64,000 bases of DNA. Origin: Streptomyces sp. 846.5 (GTDB lineage: Bacteria > Actinomycetota > Actinomycetes > Streptomycetales > Streptomycetaceae). Where the stretch lies: contig NZ_SOBN01000001.1 in NCBI RefSeq assembly GCF_004365705.1, positions 5,690,001 to 5,754,000 on the forward strand, given 5' to 3'. Positions within the stretch are counted from its first letter, which is position 1, and the number at the start of each line of letters is the position of its first letter. This document shows, piece by piece, positions 8,233 to 14,544 of the stretch. The notes beneath the pieces are model-generated. The model had not been told where the DNA came from. It saw only the letters and a list, made by a program, of their open reading frames with translations, and made no database searches. A program made the position numbers and the translations under genes.

Positions 8233-8554
8233 GGTCCTCCTAGACCTGGGGCCGAGCATGCACTGAGGCAGTGCAGGGGGAGCACTGACCCGAATTCAGG
8301 TCACATCATGGGCTGTTGCGGTGAACCGCGCATGTCACTTCGGAATACTGCGGCCACTGAGTTTCGGCCGAACATCGTCCCCGGTGGGGGATGGTCTACG
8401 CGCATTGGCTACGGGCGTAGATTTTGCCACCGTTTCGGGGTGGTTTGTCCGGTTGCGCAGGGCGGCACCAGGGCCGTCGATTCCCGGGTGCGGGTTGTCA
8501 GTCCCGGTCGATAGTCTTCGGGAGAACGGAGGGGAGACGAGGGGGGCGGTTCGG
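8233..8554. other. Divergent promoter region
   Basis: About 320 bases separate the minus-strand nuclease from the plus-strand operon that starts at 8555, so two divergent promoters should lie here. The plus strand has an open frame from 8321, but its translation up to 8554 looks non-coding. I see no tRNA, palindrome or clear -35/-10 pair. Confidence 0.4.
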
Positions 8555-9592
8555 GTGGGGCTGACGATTGCGGACGGGCGGAAGCTGACCTTCCTGCTGG
8601 AGCTGGTGCGTCCGGACCAGGCGCAGCGGGTGCTGGGCCGGATCGGGCAGCTCGGCAGCGAGCAGTCGGCGCCGCGCGAGTTGCGCGCACTGCTGAACGG
8701 GCGTCAGCCGCCGCTCATCGTGTGGCTGTGGGTGCTGGCCTGCGACCTGCCCGAGCTCAACGCGGTGGCGTTCGAGGTGCGCGAGCTGGGGGACGCCATC
8801 CGCAGGGACATCATCGAGGGCGTCCCGTTCGGGCCGGACCGGGACCGGCGGACCGAGCGGCTGCCGCTGTCGCCGATACTCGAGCGGCGTCAGAGCTACG
8901 GGCAGATGGAGTTGGAGTTCGACCTGCCGTCCCGGCAGACCGCCGAGCAGGTGCTGCCTGCGCTGCGCGCCGCGGGCGAGGCCCGGAAGCTGCGCCGGGC
9001 CCGGAAGTTCGCCGGGGCGCTGCCGCGCGACGAGTGGGACCGGGTGGCGCGGGCGGACCTGGCCGACCCGCTGCCGGGCTATGCGCGCTGGGCGCTCTCC
9101 TGCCAGGTCAACTGCCCGTCGTCGCTGCGCGAGCAGTTCGGCAGCCATGGCAAGTTCCGGTACCGGCTCCAGCAGGCCGGGGTGTTGGCGGAGCCGCACA
9201 GCTACATCGCGCGGAGCTCGGCCCGGGACGTCCTGCTGACCCTGGGTGTGATCGCGCAACCGCACTTCCCGGCGGGCCGTCAGTTCCGGGAGGAACTGGC
9301 CCCGCTGGTGCGGGAGCACCTGGGCGGGCACGCCGACGCCTGGGCGGTGCTGGCCCAACTGCTGCCGACGTTCAGCGGATCGCTGCCGGAGCTGATCAGC
9401 ACGGCCGGTGCGATCGCAGGTCCTGATCCAGATCCGGAGCCGAGTCCCGGTTTGGGTCCGGAGGACGTGGACGACGGGGACCGGCCGGATTCGAACCCGC
9501 GTATACCTGATCCGGAGTCAGGCGCGCCTGCCTCTGCGCTACAGCCCCCGTCGGCCCCGACCCTAGCCGTTGGAGGGGCGGTTGGGCCATGA
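8555..9592 (+). CDS. Unrecognised helical protein, first gene of the vWA/AAA operon
   Basis: A 345-residue protein read from the GTG at 8555-8557, which follows a GA/G-rich ribosome site. I do not recognise the family. It is rich in Leu, Arg and Ala, largely helical, with no membrane segment and no catalytic motif I can name. Conserved-looking blocks are ADGRKLTFLLELVRPDQA (residues about 6-23) and LSCQVNCPSSLREQFG (about 185-200). The last 60 residues are Pro/Asp/Gly-rich and are the sense translation across a minus-strand tRNA-like gene at 9477-9548 (reading RPDSNPRIPDPESGAP). Its TGA overlaps the ATG of the next ORF (ATGA at 9589-9592), which implies that translation really does run through the antisense tRNA. 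By position it could be the third component of a vWA/MoxR system. That is inference. Confidence 0.7.
   Translation: MGLTIADGRKLTFLLELVRPDQAQRVLGRIGQLGSEQSAPRELRALLNGRQPPLIVWLWVLACDLPELNAVAFEVRELGDAIRRDIIEGVPFGPDRDRRTERLPLSPILERRQSYGQMELEFDLPSRQTAEQVLPALRAAGEARKLRRARKFAGALPRDEWDRVARADLADPLPGYARWALSCQVNCPSSLREQFGSHGKFRYRLQQAGVLAEPHSYIARSSARDVLLTLGVIAQPHFPAGRQFREELAPLVREHLGGHADAWAVLAQLLPTFSGSLPELISTAGAIAGPDPDPEPSPGLGPEDVDDGDRPDSNPRIPDPESGAPASALQPPSAPTLAVGGAVGP
9477..9548 (-). tRNA. Atypical tRNA-Arg-like (anticodon CCG)
   Basis: A 72-base cloverleaf on the minus strand. The acceptor GGGGCTG pairs with CGGTCCC (with G-U pairs). T8-A9 is followed by a D arm GCGC/GCGC with loop AGAGGCAG. The anticodon stem CCTGA/TCAGG has loop CTCCGGA, giving anticodon CCG (arginine, CGG codons). 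The variable region is TATAC, and the T arm is GCGGG-TTCGAAT-CCGGC with one G-G mismatch. No CCA is encoded. It lies antisense inside the 3' end of the gene ending at 9592. It shares its D-loop and T-loop with the two elements at 14239-14414 and does not resemble the housekeeping streptomycete tRNA-Arg that I know. Whether it is charged, or is a tRNA mimic, is open. Confidence 0.7.
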
Positions 9593-9696
9593 GTTACGAC
9601 CGCCCCCGACTGCATGTCGTCGACCCCACCGACCGCCGGGCCCTGGCCGACTATCGTCCGGCCGCGCCGGCCGTCGTCGCCGAGGCCGGGGGCTGA
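9589..9696 (+). CDS. Small 35-residue ORF coupled to both neighbours
   Basis: ATG at 9589 overlaps the preceding gene's stop (ATGA), and GGAGGGG lies 10 bases upstream. The product MSYDRPRLHVVDPTDRRALA (first 20 residues) has normal streptomycete codon use with G/C third positions, unlike the Arg/Pro-rich translation of the overlapping downstream frame. It ends at TGA 9694-9696, directly followed by AGGAGG (9697-9702), the apparent ribosome site of the metallopeptidase/vWA gene. It is either a genuine leader or small protein, or the true N-terminus of the next gene separated from it by a frameshift (natural or from assembly). Confidence 0.5.
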   Translation: MSYDRPRLHVVDPTDRRALADYRPAAPAVVAEAGG

Positions 9697-9707
9697 AGGA
9701 GGCCGCG

Positions 9708-11012
9708 CTGCTGGACTTTGGTCTGACCGAGTCCGCCGTCGCCTCCTGGCTGTACGCCAAATGCCATCACCAGCTGCCCACCACGGCCGTGGACACCGCC
9801 GCCGTGGTGGCCTCCGGCGACGGCAGCTGCCTGCTGCTCTACAACCCGGACTTCTTCGTCGGCCTCGGCCTGGACGGGGTCAAGTTCGTTCTCTTCCACG
9901 AGGCCCGCCATCTGATCCAGCGTCACCTCTACACCGAGCCGGAACTGCGCGAGGACCCGGTGTTCGCGGTGGCGGCCGAGGTCACCATCAACCATGTCGC
10001 GCTGCTTCGGCTGGGCCGCGAGCGGCTCCCGCTGCTGGACGGCGTCCCGGTGGGCATCGACCCGCGGACCGTGCACGCGGGCTATGTCGCCGACCTCGAC
10101 GCGCAGGGGCTGGCGGCGTTGCCCTATCCGGCGTTCGTCCGGACCGACCACGGCTGCTACTCCGAGCTCAAGCGGATGCGCAACCCGCCGGTCCCGCAGC
10201 CGCGTTGCATCCACCTCAGCGGCGGGAGAGCGGGCGACGGCCGAACGGGCGGGGGCGGGGTGCCGTGCGACCAGGAGGCGGTGGACGCCGCCGTGTCGTC
10301 CGTCCTCCTCAACGCCCTGCTCGCGGCTCGGCGCGGCAACCGGGTCGCCGAGGACGAGTTGGTGGACCTGATGGGCCGCAGCGAGGACGGCTCCGCCAAC
10401 GCGTCCCGGGTCTGGGGCCGGATCGGCGCCGGCGCGCTGCGCGGGGAGACGGTGCGGACCCGGCGGGTCGACTGGTGGCAGCGCTGGCTGGTGGACGTCC
10501 TGGCGTCCCGGCTGCGCGAGGGCGAGCGGCTGGTCTACCCCAAGAAGCGCGGGGCGATCCTCGCCGCCCTGGGCCACGACCCGATGCTCTCCCGGCGCGG
10601 TCCGGTCCGGGACAAGGTGCTGGCCATCGCCTACGACACCTCGGGGTCGATGCCCGACTCGGTGGTGCACTGGCTGACCGAACTGGTGGGCCAGATCGAC
10701 GGGGTGGAGGCGCACTGGTTGTCGTTTGACGGCGCGGTGATGCCCTTCCGGCCGGGTGAGCGGGTGCGCGGCGGAGGCGGCACCAGCTTCCAGGTCGTCG
10801 CCGACTACCTGGAGGGCCGCTCGGAGGTCGACGGGCGGCGCTTCGAGGAGCGCCCCGACGCCGTGGTCATGCTGACCGACGGCTACGCCCCGCACATCAC
10901 CCCGGCCGAACCCGACAAGTGGATCTGGCTGATCACCGAGGGCGGCGACGACTGGCCCGAGACCCACACCCCCGCCATGGCCTGCCATCGCGTTACGACA
11001 GGAGAGCAGTGA
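9708..11012 (+). CDS. DUF2201-like putative metallopeptidase with C-terminal vWA domain
   Basis: About 434 residues from the proposed start. The N-terminal half matches the putative metallopeptidase domain of the DUF2201 family: SWLYAKCHHQLPTTAVDTAA, then FVLFHEARHLIQRH, an HExxH motif at residues 64-68. The C-terminal third is a vWA-like fold with an intact MIDAS (YDTSGSM, about 303-309), a glycine-rich GGGGTSF and VVMLTDGYA. Such proteins work with MoxR AAA ATPases, and one follows directly (GTGA overlap). The start is uncertain. AGGAGG at 9697-9702 is ideally spaced for a CTG at 9708, a rare start codon, while the only ATG/GTG/TTG upstream in frame (TTG 9570) would add a non-coding-looking stretch. 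The upstream 35-residue ORF may belong to this protein. Confidence 0.8.
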   Translation: MLDFGLTESAVASWLYAKCHHQLPTTAVDTAAVVASGDGSCLLLYNPDFFVGLGLDGVKFVLFHEARHLIQRHLYTEPELREDPVFAVAAEVTINHVALLRLGRERLPLLDGVPVGIDPRTVHAGYVADLDAQGLAALPYPAFVRTDHGCYSELKRMRNPPVPQPRCIHLSGGRAGDGRTGGGGVPCDQEAVDAAVSSVLLNALLAARRGNRVAEDELVDLMGRSEDGSANASRVWGRIGAGALRGETVRTRRVDWWQRWLVDVLASRLREGERLVYPKKRGAILAALGHDPMLSRRGPVRDKVLAIAYDTSGSMPDSVVHWLTELVGQIDGVEAHWLSFDGAVMPFRPGERVRGGGGTSFQVVADYLEGRSEVDGRRFEERPDAVVMLTDGYAPHITPAEPDKWIWLITEGGDDWPETHTPAMACHRVTTGEQ

Positions 11013-12847
11013 ACCAGCACAGCACGACGGTGGACGCCGTCGTTCGGGAGCTCTCCCCGCTGGAGCAGTTCATCGATGCGATGATCGACCTCGGCCAGAC
11101 CGGCCAGGTCTTCGGCGAGCACGGCATCGGCAAGACCGCGACCTTCTTCTCGCACATCGCCCGGAGCCATCCCGACACCGAGTTGGTCTTCGTCCCCGCC
11201 GCCAACCTCACCCCCGACGACCTGCTCGCCAATGCCCCGGTGCGCGACGCGGCCAGCGGTGAACTGGTGCTGCGTCAGCTGGTGATGCGTCAGCTCCGGC
11301 CCGGGAAGCGGTTCGTGCTGCTGATCGACGACTCGCTGCAGGCCGGGGAGTCGATCCAGTCGCAGCTGATGCAGATCGCCTGCAACTGGACCCTGGGCGA
11401 GTTCGACCTTCGCGAACTGGGCTGCGTCGGGGTCTTCCTCACCGACAACGAGTCGCTGGCCGAGACCGCCGCCAGGCGGAGCGACCTGGCGATCCTGGAC
11501 CGCATGGTCACGGTGCGGATCACGGCCAACGACACCGCCTGGCGGGCCGAGCTCAGCGCCCGCTTCCCCGAGTGGGACCTGCGGCCGCTGTTCCGGCTCT
11601 GGGCCGCGCAGACCCCGGCTGTGCGGGAGCTGTTGTCCCCGCGCACCCTGGAGCACATCCTGGCCAATGCCGGGGAGGGATTCCCGCTGGTCTGGGGCCT
11701 GCCGTTGATCAACGGCGAGCGGCTGCGGCTGGCCGAACCCGGCCTGGCCGACGACGGCAAGCCGCACCCCAGCCGCACCGGCGAGATCCTGGACCGGATC
11801 GCCGCCGCCCTGGGCGTCGCCAACCCCGCCCAGGTGCCGGACCCGGTGCGCCGGGTCGTCCGCGCCGCGCTCCGCAACCGCTGGACGGTGCTGCTCCAGG
11901 GCCCGCCCGGCTGCGGCAAGACGGAGATCGTCCGGCAGCTGGTCCGGGAGGAGCTGGGCCGCGAGCCGCTGTACTACTCCATGCCAGTCACCAACGTCGA
12001 GGACCTGTGCGCCCCGGTCCCGACCCCGGACGGTTCGCTGGACAACCTGCTCGCCGTGCACTTCACCGGCGACGGCCCCAAGGCCGTGGTCTGGGACGAG
12101 TACAACCGCGCCAAGGACAAGGCCGCCTTCGCCAAGCTGATGGAGATCACCCAGGAGTGGTCGCTGGCCGGACAGCGCATCGGCGGGCTGCGAGCCCAGA
12201 TCGCCCTGCAGAACCCGCCGTACCACCTGGGCCGCAAGCTCCAGGTGGCCCGGAACAACATCGCCCAGGCGACGCGGTTCACCGCCTCGCTGGTCGTCGA
12301 CCCGGCCGACATCCCCGCCAACGAATGGCTGATCGCGCGGTACGGCGCGGTCGCGGAGACCGTGCTGGAGTGGTGGAAGAACGACATCGACGAGGACGGC
12401 CGGGCCTGGATCACCAAGCGCACCCTGGAACGGCTGATCAAGCTGCACAGCAAGGGCCTGCCGCTGCAGATCGGGACGATCTACCTGGGGGACGGCGAGT
12501 ACGCGCCGGTCCCGCTCACCTCGTTGGTGGAGCGGCTGGAACGCCGACCGGTGACCGGGCTCCGCGAGCTGGCAGCCGACCCGGCCGGCTGGGAGCAGCG
12601 GCTGCGCCGGGCGGCGGAGGCGTCCAGCGAGGGGACCAATGACAGCGACACGGTGCACCAGGTGATCTCCAACGCCGAGTTGTCCCAGCTACGGAGACAC
12701 CAGGCGCTGATAGCCCGGCTGGTGGCCTGGCTGCCGCCCAAGCTCAGGTCGACGTATCTGGTGGGGGCGTCGGACGAGCACCAGCGGTACTGGATCGAGA
12801 CGTTCGCGCTGATGCCGCGTCATCCTCACCAATCGGCGACGCGGTAG
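11009..12847 (+). CDS. Tandem MoxR-type AAA+ ATPase
   Basis: A 612-residue protein from the GTG at 11009, which overlaps the previous stop (GTGA) and follows GGAGAGCA. There are two nucleotide-binding modules. The first has Walker A GEHGIGKT (residues 36-43) and an acidic LLIDDS strand. The second has Walker A QGPPGCGKTE (about 298-307) and Walker B AVVWDEYNRA (about 358-367), the form seen in MoxR and dynein-like AAA proteins. The C-terminal 200 residues are helical. MoxR ATPases pair with vWA proteins to remodel or insert cofactors into partners, and the coupled DUF2201/vWA gene upstream is the obvious partner. The 3' end overlaps the convergent SDR gene by 22 bases. Confidence 0.88.
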   Translation: MNQHSTTVDAVVRELSPLEQFIDAMIDLGQTGQVFGEHGIGKTATFFSHIARSHPDTELVFVPAANLTPDDLLANAPVRDAASGELVLRQLVMRQLRPGKRFVLLIDDSLQAGESIQSQLMQIACNWTLGEFDLRELGCVGVFLTDNESLAETAARRSDLAILDRMVTVRITANDTAWRAELSARFPEWDLRPLFRLWAAQTPAVRELLSPRTLEHILANAGEGFPLVWGLPLINGERLRLAEPGLADDGKPHPSRTGEILDRIAAALGVANPAQVPDPVRRVVRAALRNRWTVLLQGPPGCGKTEIVRQLVREELGREPLYYSMPVTNVEDLCAPVPTPDGSLDNLLAVHFTGDGPKAVVWDEYNRAKDKAAFAKLMEITQEWSLAGQRIGGLRAQIALQNPPYHLGRKLQVARNNIAQATRFTASLVVDPADIPANEWLIARYGAVAETVLEWWKNDIDEDGRAWITKRTLERLIKLHSKGLPLQIGTIYLGDGEYAPVPLTSLVERLERRPVTGLRELAADPAGWEQRLRRAAEASSEGTNDSDTVHQVISNAELSQLRRHQALIARLVAWLPPKLRSTYLVGASDEHQRYWIETFALMPRHPHQSATR

Positions 12848-14211
12848 TCCTTGAGGAAGACGCCGGACACCGGGTGCCCGGCCTCACCGCGCACGATCGG
12901 GTCGTAGATCCTGGCTGCTCCGTCCACGATGTCGAGCGGGGTGCGGAAGCCCTGGTCGGCGATCCGGGCCTTCTTGGGCGCCGGGTTCTCGTCGGTTATC
13001 CAGCCCGTGTCGACGTTGCTGAGATGCACCCCCTGGGCGGCGAGTTCCTCGGCACTGGTGCGGGTGAGCATGTTGAGGGCGGCCTTGGCCATGTTGGTGT
13101 GCGGGTGTCCTGCGGTCTTGTTGCGGACCGAGAAGCGGCCCTCGACGGCTGTGACATTGACGATGTAGCGGCGGGGGTGGGGTGAGGCCAGCAGCAGCGG
13201 CAGCAGCCGGTCGCAGAGCAGCGTCGGCGTCACGGCATTGACCAGCTGGGTCTCCAGCAGCTCGGCCGGGTCCAGCCCGCCCAGCCGGGCGGACCAGGAG
13301 TTCTCCGGCGCGGTGTCGGGCAGCAGCCCGGCCTCGTCGGTGAGCAGCGCGAGGGCGGACGAGGGCCCGGCGGCGCCGGCGGGCGCCAGCTCCTGACCGG
13401 TGCGGAAGCCGGGTGCCTCCAGCAGCCGTTGCTGCGTTTGCGACGTGTCATCGGGCAAAGCCTCCCGCTCCCCGGCCGCCAGCACGGCGTAGGCGCCGGG
13501 CGGGCGGCGTACGGTCTGCGCGGCGTTGTTCACCAGGATGTCCAACGGCCGCCCTTCGGCGCGCAGTTGCTCGCACAGGCCGAGCACCTGGCGCGGGTCG
13601 CGCAGATCGATGCCGACGACGGTCAGGCGATGCAGCCACGCGCCGCTCCCGGGCGCGGCCCGGAAACGACGGACCGTGTCCTTGGGGAAGCGGCTGGTGA
13701 CCAGGAGTTCGGCCCCGTCACGCAACAGCATCAGCGCCAGCTGGAACCCGATCTTCACCCGCCCACCGGTCAGCACCGCCCGCCGCCCCCGCAGGTCGGC
13801 CCGCGCCTCGCGGCGGCTCAGGTTCTCCGCCGCGCAGGTCGGGCAGAGGAGGTGGTAGAAGGCATCGGCGAGGGTGTAGGTCTCCTTGCATATGTAGCAG
13901 CGACGCGGTCGACGGTAGGTGCCTACGACGGTGCTGTCGCAGTCGCCGTCCCGGGCGGGGGGTACCAGCGGTGCGTCCTCGCGCCGTTCCCCGCCCCCGG
14001 TCGCGGTGGCCCGGACCACCGCCGCGTCCGCCTCGGCGTTCTCCGCCCGGCGGGCCCGACGGCGCTGCTGCTGCCCGTCCCGGGCGAACGACTCCGCAAC
14101 CCGCTCGGCACGGAGCCGCACCGGATCGGTGGCGGGCAGCGCCCGCAGGCGGCCGACGGTACGGGTGAACGCGTCCAACTCGGCATCGGTGAGCGGGATG
14201 TCATCCGCCAA
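12826..14211 (-). CDS. Zinc-ribbon short-chain dehydrogenase-like protein (SDR fold)
   Basis: A 461-residue protein from a TTG at 14209-14211 with a GGGGGCGG ribosome site. Residues about 1-100 are charged and helical. Residues about 103-125 hold two CxxC pairs (CYIC and CPTC), a probable zinc ribbon. An SDR Rossmann domain follows. Its cofactor loop is TGGRVKIG instead of the usual TGxxxGIG, and NNAAQTV is present. In the catalytic region the usual YxxxK reads TNMAK, so the lysine is kept but the tyrosine is not seen. This suggests a noncanonical or binding-only protein. It belongs to a widespread SDR family with the GGRVKIG loop whose role I do not know. It converges on the AAA gene, and two tRNA-like genes lie just upstream on the same strand. 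Confidence 0.82.
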   Translation of the reverse strand: MADDIPLTDAELDAFTRTVGRLRALPATDPVRLRAERVAESFARDGQQQRRRARRAENAEADAAVVRATATGGGERREDAPLVPPARDGDCDSTVVGTYRRPRRCYICKETYTLADAFYHLLCPTCAAENLSRREARADLRGRRAVLTGGRVKIGFQLALMLLRDGAELLVTSRFPKDTVRRFRAAPGSGAWLHRLTVVGIDLRDPRQVLGLCEQLRAEGRPLDILVNNAAQTVRRPPGAYAVLAAGEREALPDDTSQTQQRLLEAPGFRTGQELAPAGAAGPSSALALLTDEAGLLPDTAPENSWSARLGGLDPAELLETQLVNAVTPTLLCDRLLPLLLASPHPRRYIVNVTAVEGRFSVRNKTAGHPHTNMAKAALNMLTRTSAEELAAQGVHLSNVDTGWITDENPAPKKARIADQGFRTPLDIVDGAARIYDPIVRGEAGHPVSGVFLKDYRVADW

Positions 14212-14238
14212 GGTGCCGCCCCCCGTTTCGCTTCCTGT

Positions 14239-14310
14239 GGTCCCGACCGGATTCGAACCGGCGTGGTCCCCCATGCCAAGGGGATGCGACTGCCTCTGCG
14301 CTACGGGGCC
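14239..14310 (-). tRNA. Atypical tRNA-Ala-like (anticodon GGC)
   Basis: A 72-base cloverleaf on the minus strand, 28 bases upstream of the SDR start. The acceptor GGCCCCG/CGGGACC has one C-A mismatch. After TA, the D arm is GCGC/TCGC with loop AGAGGCAG. The anticodon stem TCCCC/GGGGG has loop TTGGCAT (anticodon GGC, alanine). The variable region is ACCAC and the T arm GCCGG-TTCGAAT-CCGGT. The G3-U70 alanine identity pair is absent, so normal charging by AlaRS is doubtful. The D arm and T arm are nearly identical to those of the next element. Confidence 0.65.
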
Positions 14311-14343
14311 GGATCCAACTGTGAACTGGCAACTGCCAACTGC

Positions 14344-14414
14344 CCGGGGGACCGGATTCGAACCGGCGTGGTCCCATTGCGACGGGGATGCGCCTGCCTC
14401 TGCGCTACCCCCGG
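14344..14414 (-). tRNA. Atypical tRNA-Ala-like (anticodon CGC) with extended acceptor
   Basis: A 71-base cloverleaf on the minus strand, 33 bases upstream of the previous one. The acceptor CCGGGGG/CCCCCGG is perfect and extends by three more pairs into TGC/GCA, giving a 10-bp stem, longer than a normal 7-bp acceptor. The D arm is GCGC/GCGC with loop AGAGGCAG. The anticodon stem TCCCC/TGGGA (one mismatch) has loop GTCGCAA (anticodon CGC, alanine). The variable region is CCAC and the T arm GCCGG-TTCGAAT-CCGGT. It lacks G3-U70 and an encoded CCA. The long stem looks more like a tRNA mimic or a processing hairpin than a translation tRNA. Confidence 0.62.
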
Positions 14415-14544
14415 GCATTGCCGACGATGGTAGCGCTCGCCCAGTGTTCATCTGACACCGTGGCGCGGGCTCCGCCACACTGGACCTGCCCGGCGAGTGC
14501 CGGGCCTCGTGGCCGACCCGGACACTCCGGGCGGGGGGACGACT

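Follow-up and report, generated by a model that had tools for sequence, protein, structure and literature searches.

Do the transfer RNA (tRNA)-shaped sequences that flank a group of protein-coding genes in a Streptomyces genome serve translation, or do they borrow the shape of a tRNA for another purpose? The question arises in a 64,000-nucleotide (nt) stretch of Streptomyces sp. 846.5 (NCBI RefSeq assembly GCF_004365705.1, contig NZ_SOBN01000001.1, positions 5,690,001 to 5,754,000 of the forward strand; hereafter the window), where three related cloverleaf-forming elements lie around an SDR gene, a MoxR-type AAA gene and a DUF2201-vWA gene. We find that these elements belong to a family of their own whose steady partner is the SDR gene. 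The reading we favour, at about an even chance of being right, is that they are tRNA mimics in the leader of the SDR messenger RNA (mRNA), through which tRNA-handling machinery would control release or translation of the SDR message.

A preliminary description had pointed to three related tRNA-like cloverleaves at this locus, and the same three are called by both ARAGORN and Rfam RF00005. ARAGORN reads them, all on the minus strand, as Arg(CCG) at 9475-9549, Ala(GGC) at 14237-14310 and Ala(CGC) at 14342-14414, and Rfam RF00005 scores them at 52.3, 44.2 and 45.0 bits, respectively, against a gathering score of 29. At gathering scores Rfam reports these copies only as tRNA, and no other structured RNA in the window reaches that level. 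The two Ala-type copies have the lowest scores among the 74 tRNA matches of the genome, with the Arg-type copy eleventh from the bottom. Since ordinary Arg(CCG), Ala(GGC) and Ala(CGC) genes are present elsewhere in the genome, the three elements are additional to them. They share a D-arm 14-mer, TAGCGCAGAGGCAG, that occurs exactly only at these three sites in 9.03 Mb, with two more sites at one mismatch; this confinement, together with the ordinary isoacceptors elsewhere, marks them as extra elements with a sequence family of their own. We call them type I (first of the array in the SDR leader), type II (second of the array, adjoining the SDR gene) and solo (divergent from the DUF2201-vWA gene); in the family-wide tallies of flank pairing and anticodons these classes were assigned by acceptor letters and loop rather than by position.

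We ran a strict D-arm/T-arm pattern over 84,980 species genomes and obtained 107 stretches, 80 of which were listed and examined. All 80 come from actinomycetes, mostly Streptomyces and Kitasatospora, with further hosts in Streptacidiphilus, Actinacidiphila, Catenulispora, Actinospica, Amycolatopsis, Lentzea, Kutzneria, Kibdelosporangium, Saccharothrix and Murinocardiopsis and in one record named Streptosporangium. The cultured species S. antibioticus and S. griseoruber are among the listed hosts, and presence in cultured Streptomyces makes direct tests possible. As regards a phage origin, the strict pattern gave no match in viral contigs. In a set of 120 related genomes that includes the window's own, a looser pattern matched in 30 and a reversed control pattern in none; we set aside a chance-like 45-nt match in genome G116 and matches in G042 and G011 that reach only 30 and 25 bits with a covariance model, the latter cut at a contig start. 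With the same model the elements score 68-84 bits, the window copies being part of its training set, and ordinary tRNAs up to 61.5 bits. We found no description of such a tRNA-mimic family in the open-access literature, and from sequence the elements look like an undescribed kind of tRNA mimic that is widespread in soil actinomycetes.

The SDR gene as steady partner

Placement was surveyed in 80 loci (79 of the 80 named loci and the window, mostly as 8-kb stretches). Directly upstream of an SDR gene, on the same strand, lie 69 of the 100 arrays or solos; the rest comprise 14 solos divergent from DUF2201, one element before an LRR gene and 16 that are unassigned or lie at an edge. The SDR arrays hold one (17 arrays), two (43), three (8) or five (1) recognised copies, counts from which degenerate or variant copies may be missing. 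Across the same loci an SDR gene is present in 74, an LRR-type gene in 41, MoxR in 37 and DUF2201 in 29. Among the 120 genomes, a close SDR gene (at least 61% identity; one gene in two pieces) occurs in 33, of which 21 carry elements directly upstream and one more (locus L190) carries two decayed upstream copies of 33 and 27 bits. Twenty selected SDR paralogues of lower similarity have no element in their upstream regions, and the SDR gene of genome G014 (58%) has a single one at 63.5 bits (L362).

The preliminary description had instead proposed a dedicated link to the vWA/MoxR pair. A strong DUF2201 match is present in 23 of the 120 genomes; elements share its stretch in 13 of these, and a fourteenth (G086) has them on another contig with MoxR and SDR genes. 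The other nine DUF2201-MoxR genomes have no close SDR gene beside the pair and no element there: in four of the nine stretches the covariance model returns only 19-22-bit matches, three of them at tRNA-Ser genes, and among the nine a 20.6-bit match at L159 is not called by ARAGORN and the L162 stretch starts near a contig end. Conversely, six genomes (G013, G026, G038, G046, G050 and G062) combine the SDR gene and elements with no DUF2201 match, G050 keeping a MoxR remnant. Two further genomes of this kind, G085 and G087, offer only short or cut contigs and are counted outside the six. Among the 14 DUF2201 genomes with elements, G084 has an element and no SDR gene in its short contig. Given this dissociation in both directions, we rejected DUF2201-MoxR as the core partner and with it the dedicated link; the steady partner of the elements is the SDR gene. 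A tie between the solo element and DUF2201 remains, with a solo divergently upstream in 14 of the 22 loci in which the DUF2201 5' end is visible. The grouping itself stands: the three elements belong together and differ from ordinary tRNA genes, and many actinomycetes show the same placement around DUF2201-vWA, MoxR and SDR genes.

A promoter-like box marks the start of these arrays. Of the 100 elements that stand first in an array or alone, 92 have a TANNNT box whose end lies 9-15 nt upstream (12 nt in 53), compared with 0 and 1 of 100 at two control distances and 6 of 64 before inner array elements. Since the box lies 9-15 nt ahead, the predicted transcript would start at the element itself. 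At the other end, the SDR N-terminus or start could be recognised in 44 of 125 leaders; in these, a type II copy, where recognised, lies 1 to about 50 nt ahead of the start codon. In L250, L251 and L297 the gap is 1-4 nt, too short for a normal leader without cleavage of the RNA at this point, and we infer a putative cut at the junction of the type II copy and the SDR gene. Upstream of the solo element in L270, L283 and L287, a GC-rich inverted repeat overlapping the -10-like region was seen by eye; it may serve as an operator or as an upstream terminator.

The fold is conserved across the family. On a sequence-based alignment of 67 diverse elements (cut by hand from 81, with the structure taken from one member), 94% of cells are paired and 15 of 20 pairs show double changes against a shuffled mean of 11.8, with a covariation score of 0.506 compared with 0.162 in shuffled and 0.06-0.21 in slid alignments. 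The D-stem pair 11-24 is C-G in 159, A-T in 27 and T-A in 7 elements, at a position where the search pattern demanded a pair. Pairing also continues past position 73, with the 5' flank, in two of the classes. Type I copies, mostly the first of their array, average 3.75 of 5 pairs against 3.10 under within-type permutation (maximum of 1000, 3.37) and solos 3.57 against 3.23 (maximum 3.52), whereas type II copies give 2.71 against 2.65 and ordinary tRNAs of the window's own genome 2.50. On the alignment, the four extra acceptor pairs are formed in 50.7% of cells compared with 39.6% shuffled and 34-44% slid. In the window, the type I acceptor stem gains three pairs (14415-14417 with 14341-14343) and, flanks included, forms 10 uninterrupted pairs plus three after a bulge in the computed fold, while the acceptor-like stem of the solo reaches 12 uninterrupted base pairs (bp; z scores in Table 1). 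The window's type II copy has an acceptor stem of seven positions with a C3.A70 mismatch and no prolongation.

Loop turnover on a near-frozen scaffold

Few parts of a genome change as slowly as tRNA genes, whose anticodons barely vary between orthologues. We compared 37 orthologous locus pairs with SDRs 84-98% identical, in a fixed register, and no locus entered more than two pairs; before the orthologue comparisons we removed five named loci whose genomes the relatives set already contained. Differences per site amount to 0.023 in the D arm, 0.032 in the T arm, 0.066 and 0.096 in the acceptor, 0.112 in the anticodon stem and 0.077 at U33, as opposed to 0.385, 0.558, 0.308, 0.269, 0.212 and 0.412 at positions 32, 34, 35, 36, 37 and 38. 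The baselines, which are rough in GC-rich genomes and come from locus pairs that are not independent, are 0.208 in spacers and 0.252 at four-fold sites of the SDR gene. The excess of positions 34-36 over four-fold sites has a p value of 0.0003 (0.013 at half weight), and position 37 shows no excess over either baseline. Among 71 pairs of orthologous elements, 48 have different anticodons, a count made with a small bonus for U33 in the loop register; the same bonus applies to the isoacceptor-loop, anticodon-class and 32/38-context tests below and was left out of the per-site rates, the 173-element feature tally and the -10-like box survey. The usual tRNA pattern is thereby inverted, with arms nearly frozen and anticodon loops swapped even between sister species in an isoacceptor-like context, which speaks for an as yet undescribed reader that recognises tRNA-shaped leaders in bacteria known for making antibiotics. 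The near-frozen elbow suggests one common reader, and the loop turnover suggests an anticodon display that is either selected to vary or freely exchangeable with real loops.

Positions 32 and 38 track the anticodon as they do in the tRNAs of the same genome (13 of 35 distinct loops compared with 5.6 permuted, p 0.001), and a match at 32, 37 and 38 is found in 25 of all 86 loops against 9.2. Because the 32/38 context follows the anticodon, the loops imitate, or are copied from, real isoacceptor loops. C36 is the usual last letter of SDR-leader anticodons (Ala, Gly, Asp, Glu), and solos divergent from DUF2201 carry a CCA anticodon in 11 of 14, the window's being CCG; a higher count of CCA in 22 of 23 solos was dropped, as that class had been defined by its CTCC loop. 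Pairing of the anticodon loop with the SDR start region (4.12 against 3.98 permuted, with 19 of 500 permutations as high) is too weak to claim. Loop-loop kissing between neighbours gave no signal (201 of 1000 permutations as high), and equal anticodons in neighbouring elements, 0 of 36 against 2.1 expected, stay within chance.

Measured against an ordinary tRNA, the elements agree in shape and depart from it in identity. D, anticodon and T arms are all present, except for the anticodon arm of the Catenulispora SDR-leader copies, in which a larger loop replaces the 7-nt anticodon loop. U33 is found in 145 of 173 elements. The anticodon is neither conserved, as the orthologue count above indicates, nor matched to acceptor identity: G3-U70 occurs in only 4 of 44 elements with an Ala anticodon, so its absence from the window's two Ala-type copies, already remarked on in the preliminary description, is a family-wide trait, and the discriminator and the 1-72 pair are mixed within anticodon classes. 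Type I and solo copies, both as classes and in the window, depart from a 7-bp acceptor with a free 3' end; type II copies show no prolongation. An encoded CCA 3' end is present in 8 of 173, a weak point, as the CCA enzyme could add it.

Readings of the elements

Under the reading we favour, the elements would stand outside the decoding set, and one to five copies would make up the 5' leader of the SDR mRNA. The transcript would start at the base of the first cloverleaf, the prolonged type I acceptor stem would bury the 5' end, and the copy beside the start codon, type II, would keep an acceptor of normal length. RNase P/Z, synthetases, an elongation factor or the ribosome could read the leader through its conserved elbow and tRNA-like anticodon loop, and such recognition would control whether the SDR message is released or translated; the solo copy has a -10-like box of its own and would be a free-standing small RNA of this type. 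What the sequences show are the family, its fold and placement, the promoter-like boxes, the prolonged stem and the loop turnover; transcription, processing, the identity of the reader and the effect on the SDR are what this reading would add to these.

Several observations weigh against it. Of the 33 close SDR genes, 11 have no upstream element by the covariance model, about 160 nt of upstream sequence being visible for two of them (L198 and L199). Elements also stand before MFS, S66 peptidase and LRR genes (L248 by similarity, and L358) or alone, some near insertion sequences, and the Catenulispora element sits between the MoxR and SDR genes, a layout that accounts for four of the eight loci lacking the box. 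The type II class shows no stem prolongation, and the window's type II copy folds no better than shuffles (z +1.31). Consensus scans of the window found no full sigma-70 promoter at the array or at the solo element. U33 and a purine at 37 occur together in 115 of 173 elements, beyond what a pure leader structure would need. The covariance model separates elements from ordinary tRNAs only modestly, and stray relatives score 54-75 bits. The solo copy, finally, has no recognised gene behind it, and a role in cis is therefore not the whole story.

The loop turnover would fit a different role, in which the elements are decoys or sensors for agents that attack tRNAs, such as anticodon nucleases, tRNA-targeting toxins or synthetase inhibitors: the loop would display the anticodon of the victim tRNA, to be renewed as attackers change, and an attack would turn on SDR, LRR, efflux or peptidase genes. 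Positions 32, 34-36 and 38 vary at 0.27-0.56 per site against 0.21 in spacers and 0.25 at four-fold sites, with 0.08 at U33, the 32/38 context tracks the anticodon, and the partners include an EmrB-type MFS protein and an S66 peptidase. We nonetheless consider this unlikely: we recognised neither a nuclease gene nor one for a toxin or for repair at this locus, PADLOC found no defence family among five locus proteins beyond short AAA matches around Walker A, the Catenulispora SDR-leader copies have lost the anticodon loop, and position 37 (0.21) sits at a baseline that is itself rough, drawn from non-independent pairs, with the 34-36 excess falling to p 0.013 at half weight. A variant that joins it to the leader reading places the anticodon under diversifying selection, a frozen scaffold showing the cell's own exchanged loops so as to sense or absorb tRNA-directed agents and switch on SDR, LRR, efflux or peptidase genes; we put it forward tentatively, as the boldest reading and an unlikely one, which, if true, would make an RNA arms race visible at the anticodon.

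That the elements are real supernumerary tRNAs, cotranscribed with the SDR gene, charged and used in translation, seems more doubtful. The cloverleaf is intact, U33 is mostly kept, no stop-reading anticodon occurs among 146, and type I loops are identical to a loop of the same genome in 20 of 83 cases compared with 6.9 shuffled (maximum 14), type II loops in 6 of 40 against 2.2 (maximum 8, within chance). There is also a precedent in Anabaena, which is reported to carry an extra operon of 26 megaplasmid tRNA genes, repressed by default by TrcR and activated under translational stress (PMC10272220); it shares with our elements the supernumerary tRNA-type genes and differs in that here one to five mimics precede an enzyme gene. 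Set against this are the uncoupling of anticodon and acceptor features, an anticodon loop that is the fastest part of the element, stems that extend beyond position 73 in many copies of the type I and solo classes, the ordinary isoacceptors already present and, weakly, the rarity of an encoded CCA.

Less probable again is a trans-acting RNA that would form a ribonucleoprotein with DUF2201-vWA, MoxR, SDR, LRR or the neighbouring protein P1up, after the manner of Ro/Y RNA particles. The solo with its own -10-like box and divergent position, as well as the broad conserved neighbourhood of the 80 loci, would suit it, but elements persist without DUF2201/MoxR and the reverse. The Ro-type connection drawn in the preliminary description finds no support, as no TROVE/Rsr (Ro60) match in Pfam appeared among the locus proteins scanned, to which that search was confined, and we found no evidence for the RNA-guided role it had also entertained. 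The last possibility, functionless remnants of a mobile or decaying tRNA array, is very improbable. Decayed copies do exist in L190, and strays occur near transposase genes and as a partial match on a plasmid; the strong covariation, the fixed -10-like box, the same position in several families and D and T arms nearly frozen at 0.02-0.03 per site against 0.21-0.25 all speak against it.

Known systems likewise offer partial parallels to the favoured leader role. In the thrS operator and related cases of synthetase-mRNA mimicry, an anticodon-arm mimic in the mRNA regulates its own synthetase. A tRNA-like structure in a 5' leader is common to both cases, 69 of 100 of ours lying before an SDR gene with the transcript start predicted from -10-like boxes, but here whole cloverleaves with unmatched anticodons stand where no synthetase gene follows, the downstream gene being an SDR, MFS or peptidase gene. 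The closest known case is the tRNA-Other pseudo-tRNA of Bacillus cereus, which is described as a non-translational tRNA shape inside a larger regulatory RNA with a link to antibiotic resistance (PMC3399842). It resembles our elements in being tRNA-shaped, outside translation and part of a larger RNA, and differs as a single element flanking a genomic island, where we find a family that forms arrays beside a steady gene partner, with anticodons that change and stems that are prolonged. YrlA, the Y RNA of Ro/Rsr RNA-repair operons, has a tRNA-like domain that, its authors suggest, might inhibit an anticodon nuclease (PMC7790460); it too lies beside protein genes, whereas ours are plain cloverleaves before an SDR gene, with no Rsr or RtcB called among the scanned proteins. 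The vWA-MoxR ternary conflict systems of multicellular actinobacteria (PMC7159879) share the vWA and MoxR genes in the order VMAP-MoxR-vWA, unlike the DUF2201-vWA then MoxR order seen here; the scanned locus proteins gave no Pfam match to VMAP, P1up is without a family, and in a term search of that article's main text DUF2201 is absent and tRNA appears once. The thrS operator, Y RNA, the ternary systems and the Anabaena operon each share single traits with the window elements.

Neighbouring genes and scattered relatives

The coordinates of the elements, their -10-like boxes and the surrounding genes are collected in Table 1.

Table 1. Features of the tRNA-like element locus in the window, with the basis of each assignment
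Feature	Position	Strand	Basis and remarks
Type I tRNA-like element, first of SDR leader array, anticodon read as CGC	14343..14414	-	ARAGORN, Rfam; fold z -2.29 with flanks
Type II tRNA-like element, second of array, adjoins SDR, anticodon GGC	14238..14310	-	ARAGORN, Rfam
Solo tRNA-like element, anticodon CCG, divergent from DUF2201-vWA	9476..9548	-	ARAGORN, Rfam; fold z -2.41 with flanks
-10-like box TACCAT, 12 nt before array	14427..14432	-	TANNNT box survey
-10-like box TAGGGT, 11 nt before solo element	9560..9565	-	TANNNT box survey
SDR with N-terminal zinc ribbon	12826..14211	-	SDR by family search; proposed TTG start 26 nt past second element
DUF2201-type metallopeptidase/vWA gene	9589..11012	+	DUF2201_N match; HEARH motif by eye
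AAA protein (MoxR), 612 aa	11009..12847	+	AAA family matches
Protein P1up, 3' end toward solo element	8528..9469	+	No family assigned

The protein annotations of the preliminary description stand, with DUF2201_N, AAA and SDR matches all found. The zinc ribbon of the SDR (CYICK...LCPTC) is a by-eye reading for which family searches gave no call, and in a search of solved structures the SDR matched generic SDRs and related reductases. The AAA protein has two Walker-A-like motifs by eye, FGEHGIGKT and QGPPGCGKT; an AAA_5 match covers the latter. The first 35 codons of the DUF2201-vWA gene (9589-9696) are in another frame than the remainder (9696-11012), and the gene is one continuous frame in the sister-species locus L261, the break in the window being a frameshift or an assembly error. 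P1up has no family in Pfam, NCBIfam or PADLOC. Its C-terminal part recurs in many large proteins of relatives (loci L223-L244; 19 matches in G014), some of which adjoin other DUF2201-MoxR loci, and one such longer protein that was scanned gave no Pfam match.

In Catenulispora-like genomes, elements precede an S66 LD-carboxypeptidase gene (L364, 6012-7075) and MFS genes; the MFS contexts fall among L177, L180, L181, L365 and L366, with L180 of EmrB type and L365 and L366 recognised by eye. Relatives that stand alone, with D-loops of the GGTCG type and anticodons such as CCA or CAT (L352-L361), are scattered in Streptomycetaceae, one of them (L354) beside a transposase-like gene by eye. The stray L387, near a transposase by annotation, is a partial match on the Streptomyces plasmid NZ_CP108839.1 and the only plasmid match. 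The window's own genome also has a tRNA cluster with odd D-arms, apart from the ordinary set (L064, contig C2, 1910094-1910620), which comprises Leu CAG, Leu GAG, Met and Tyr.

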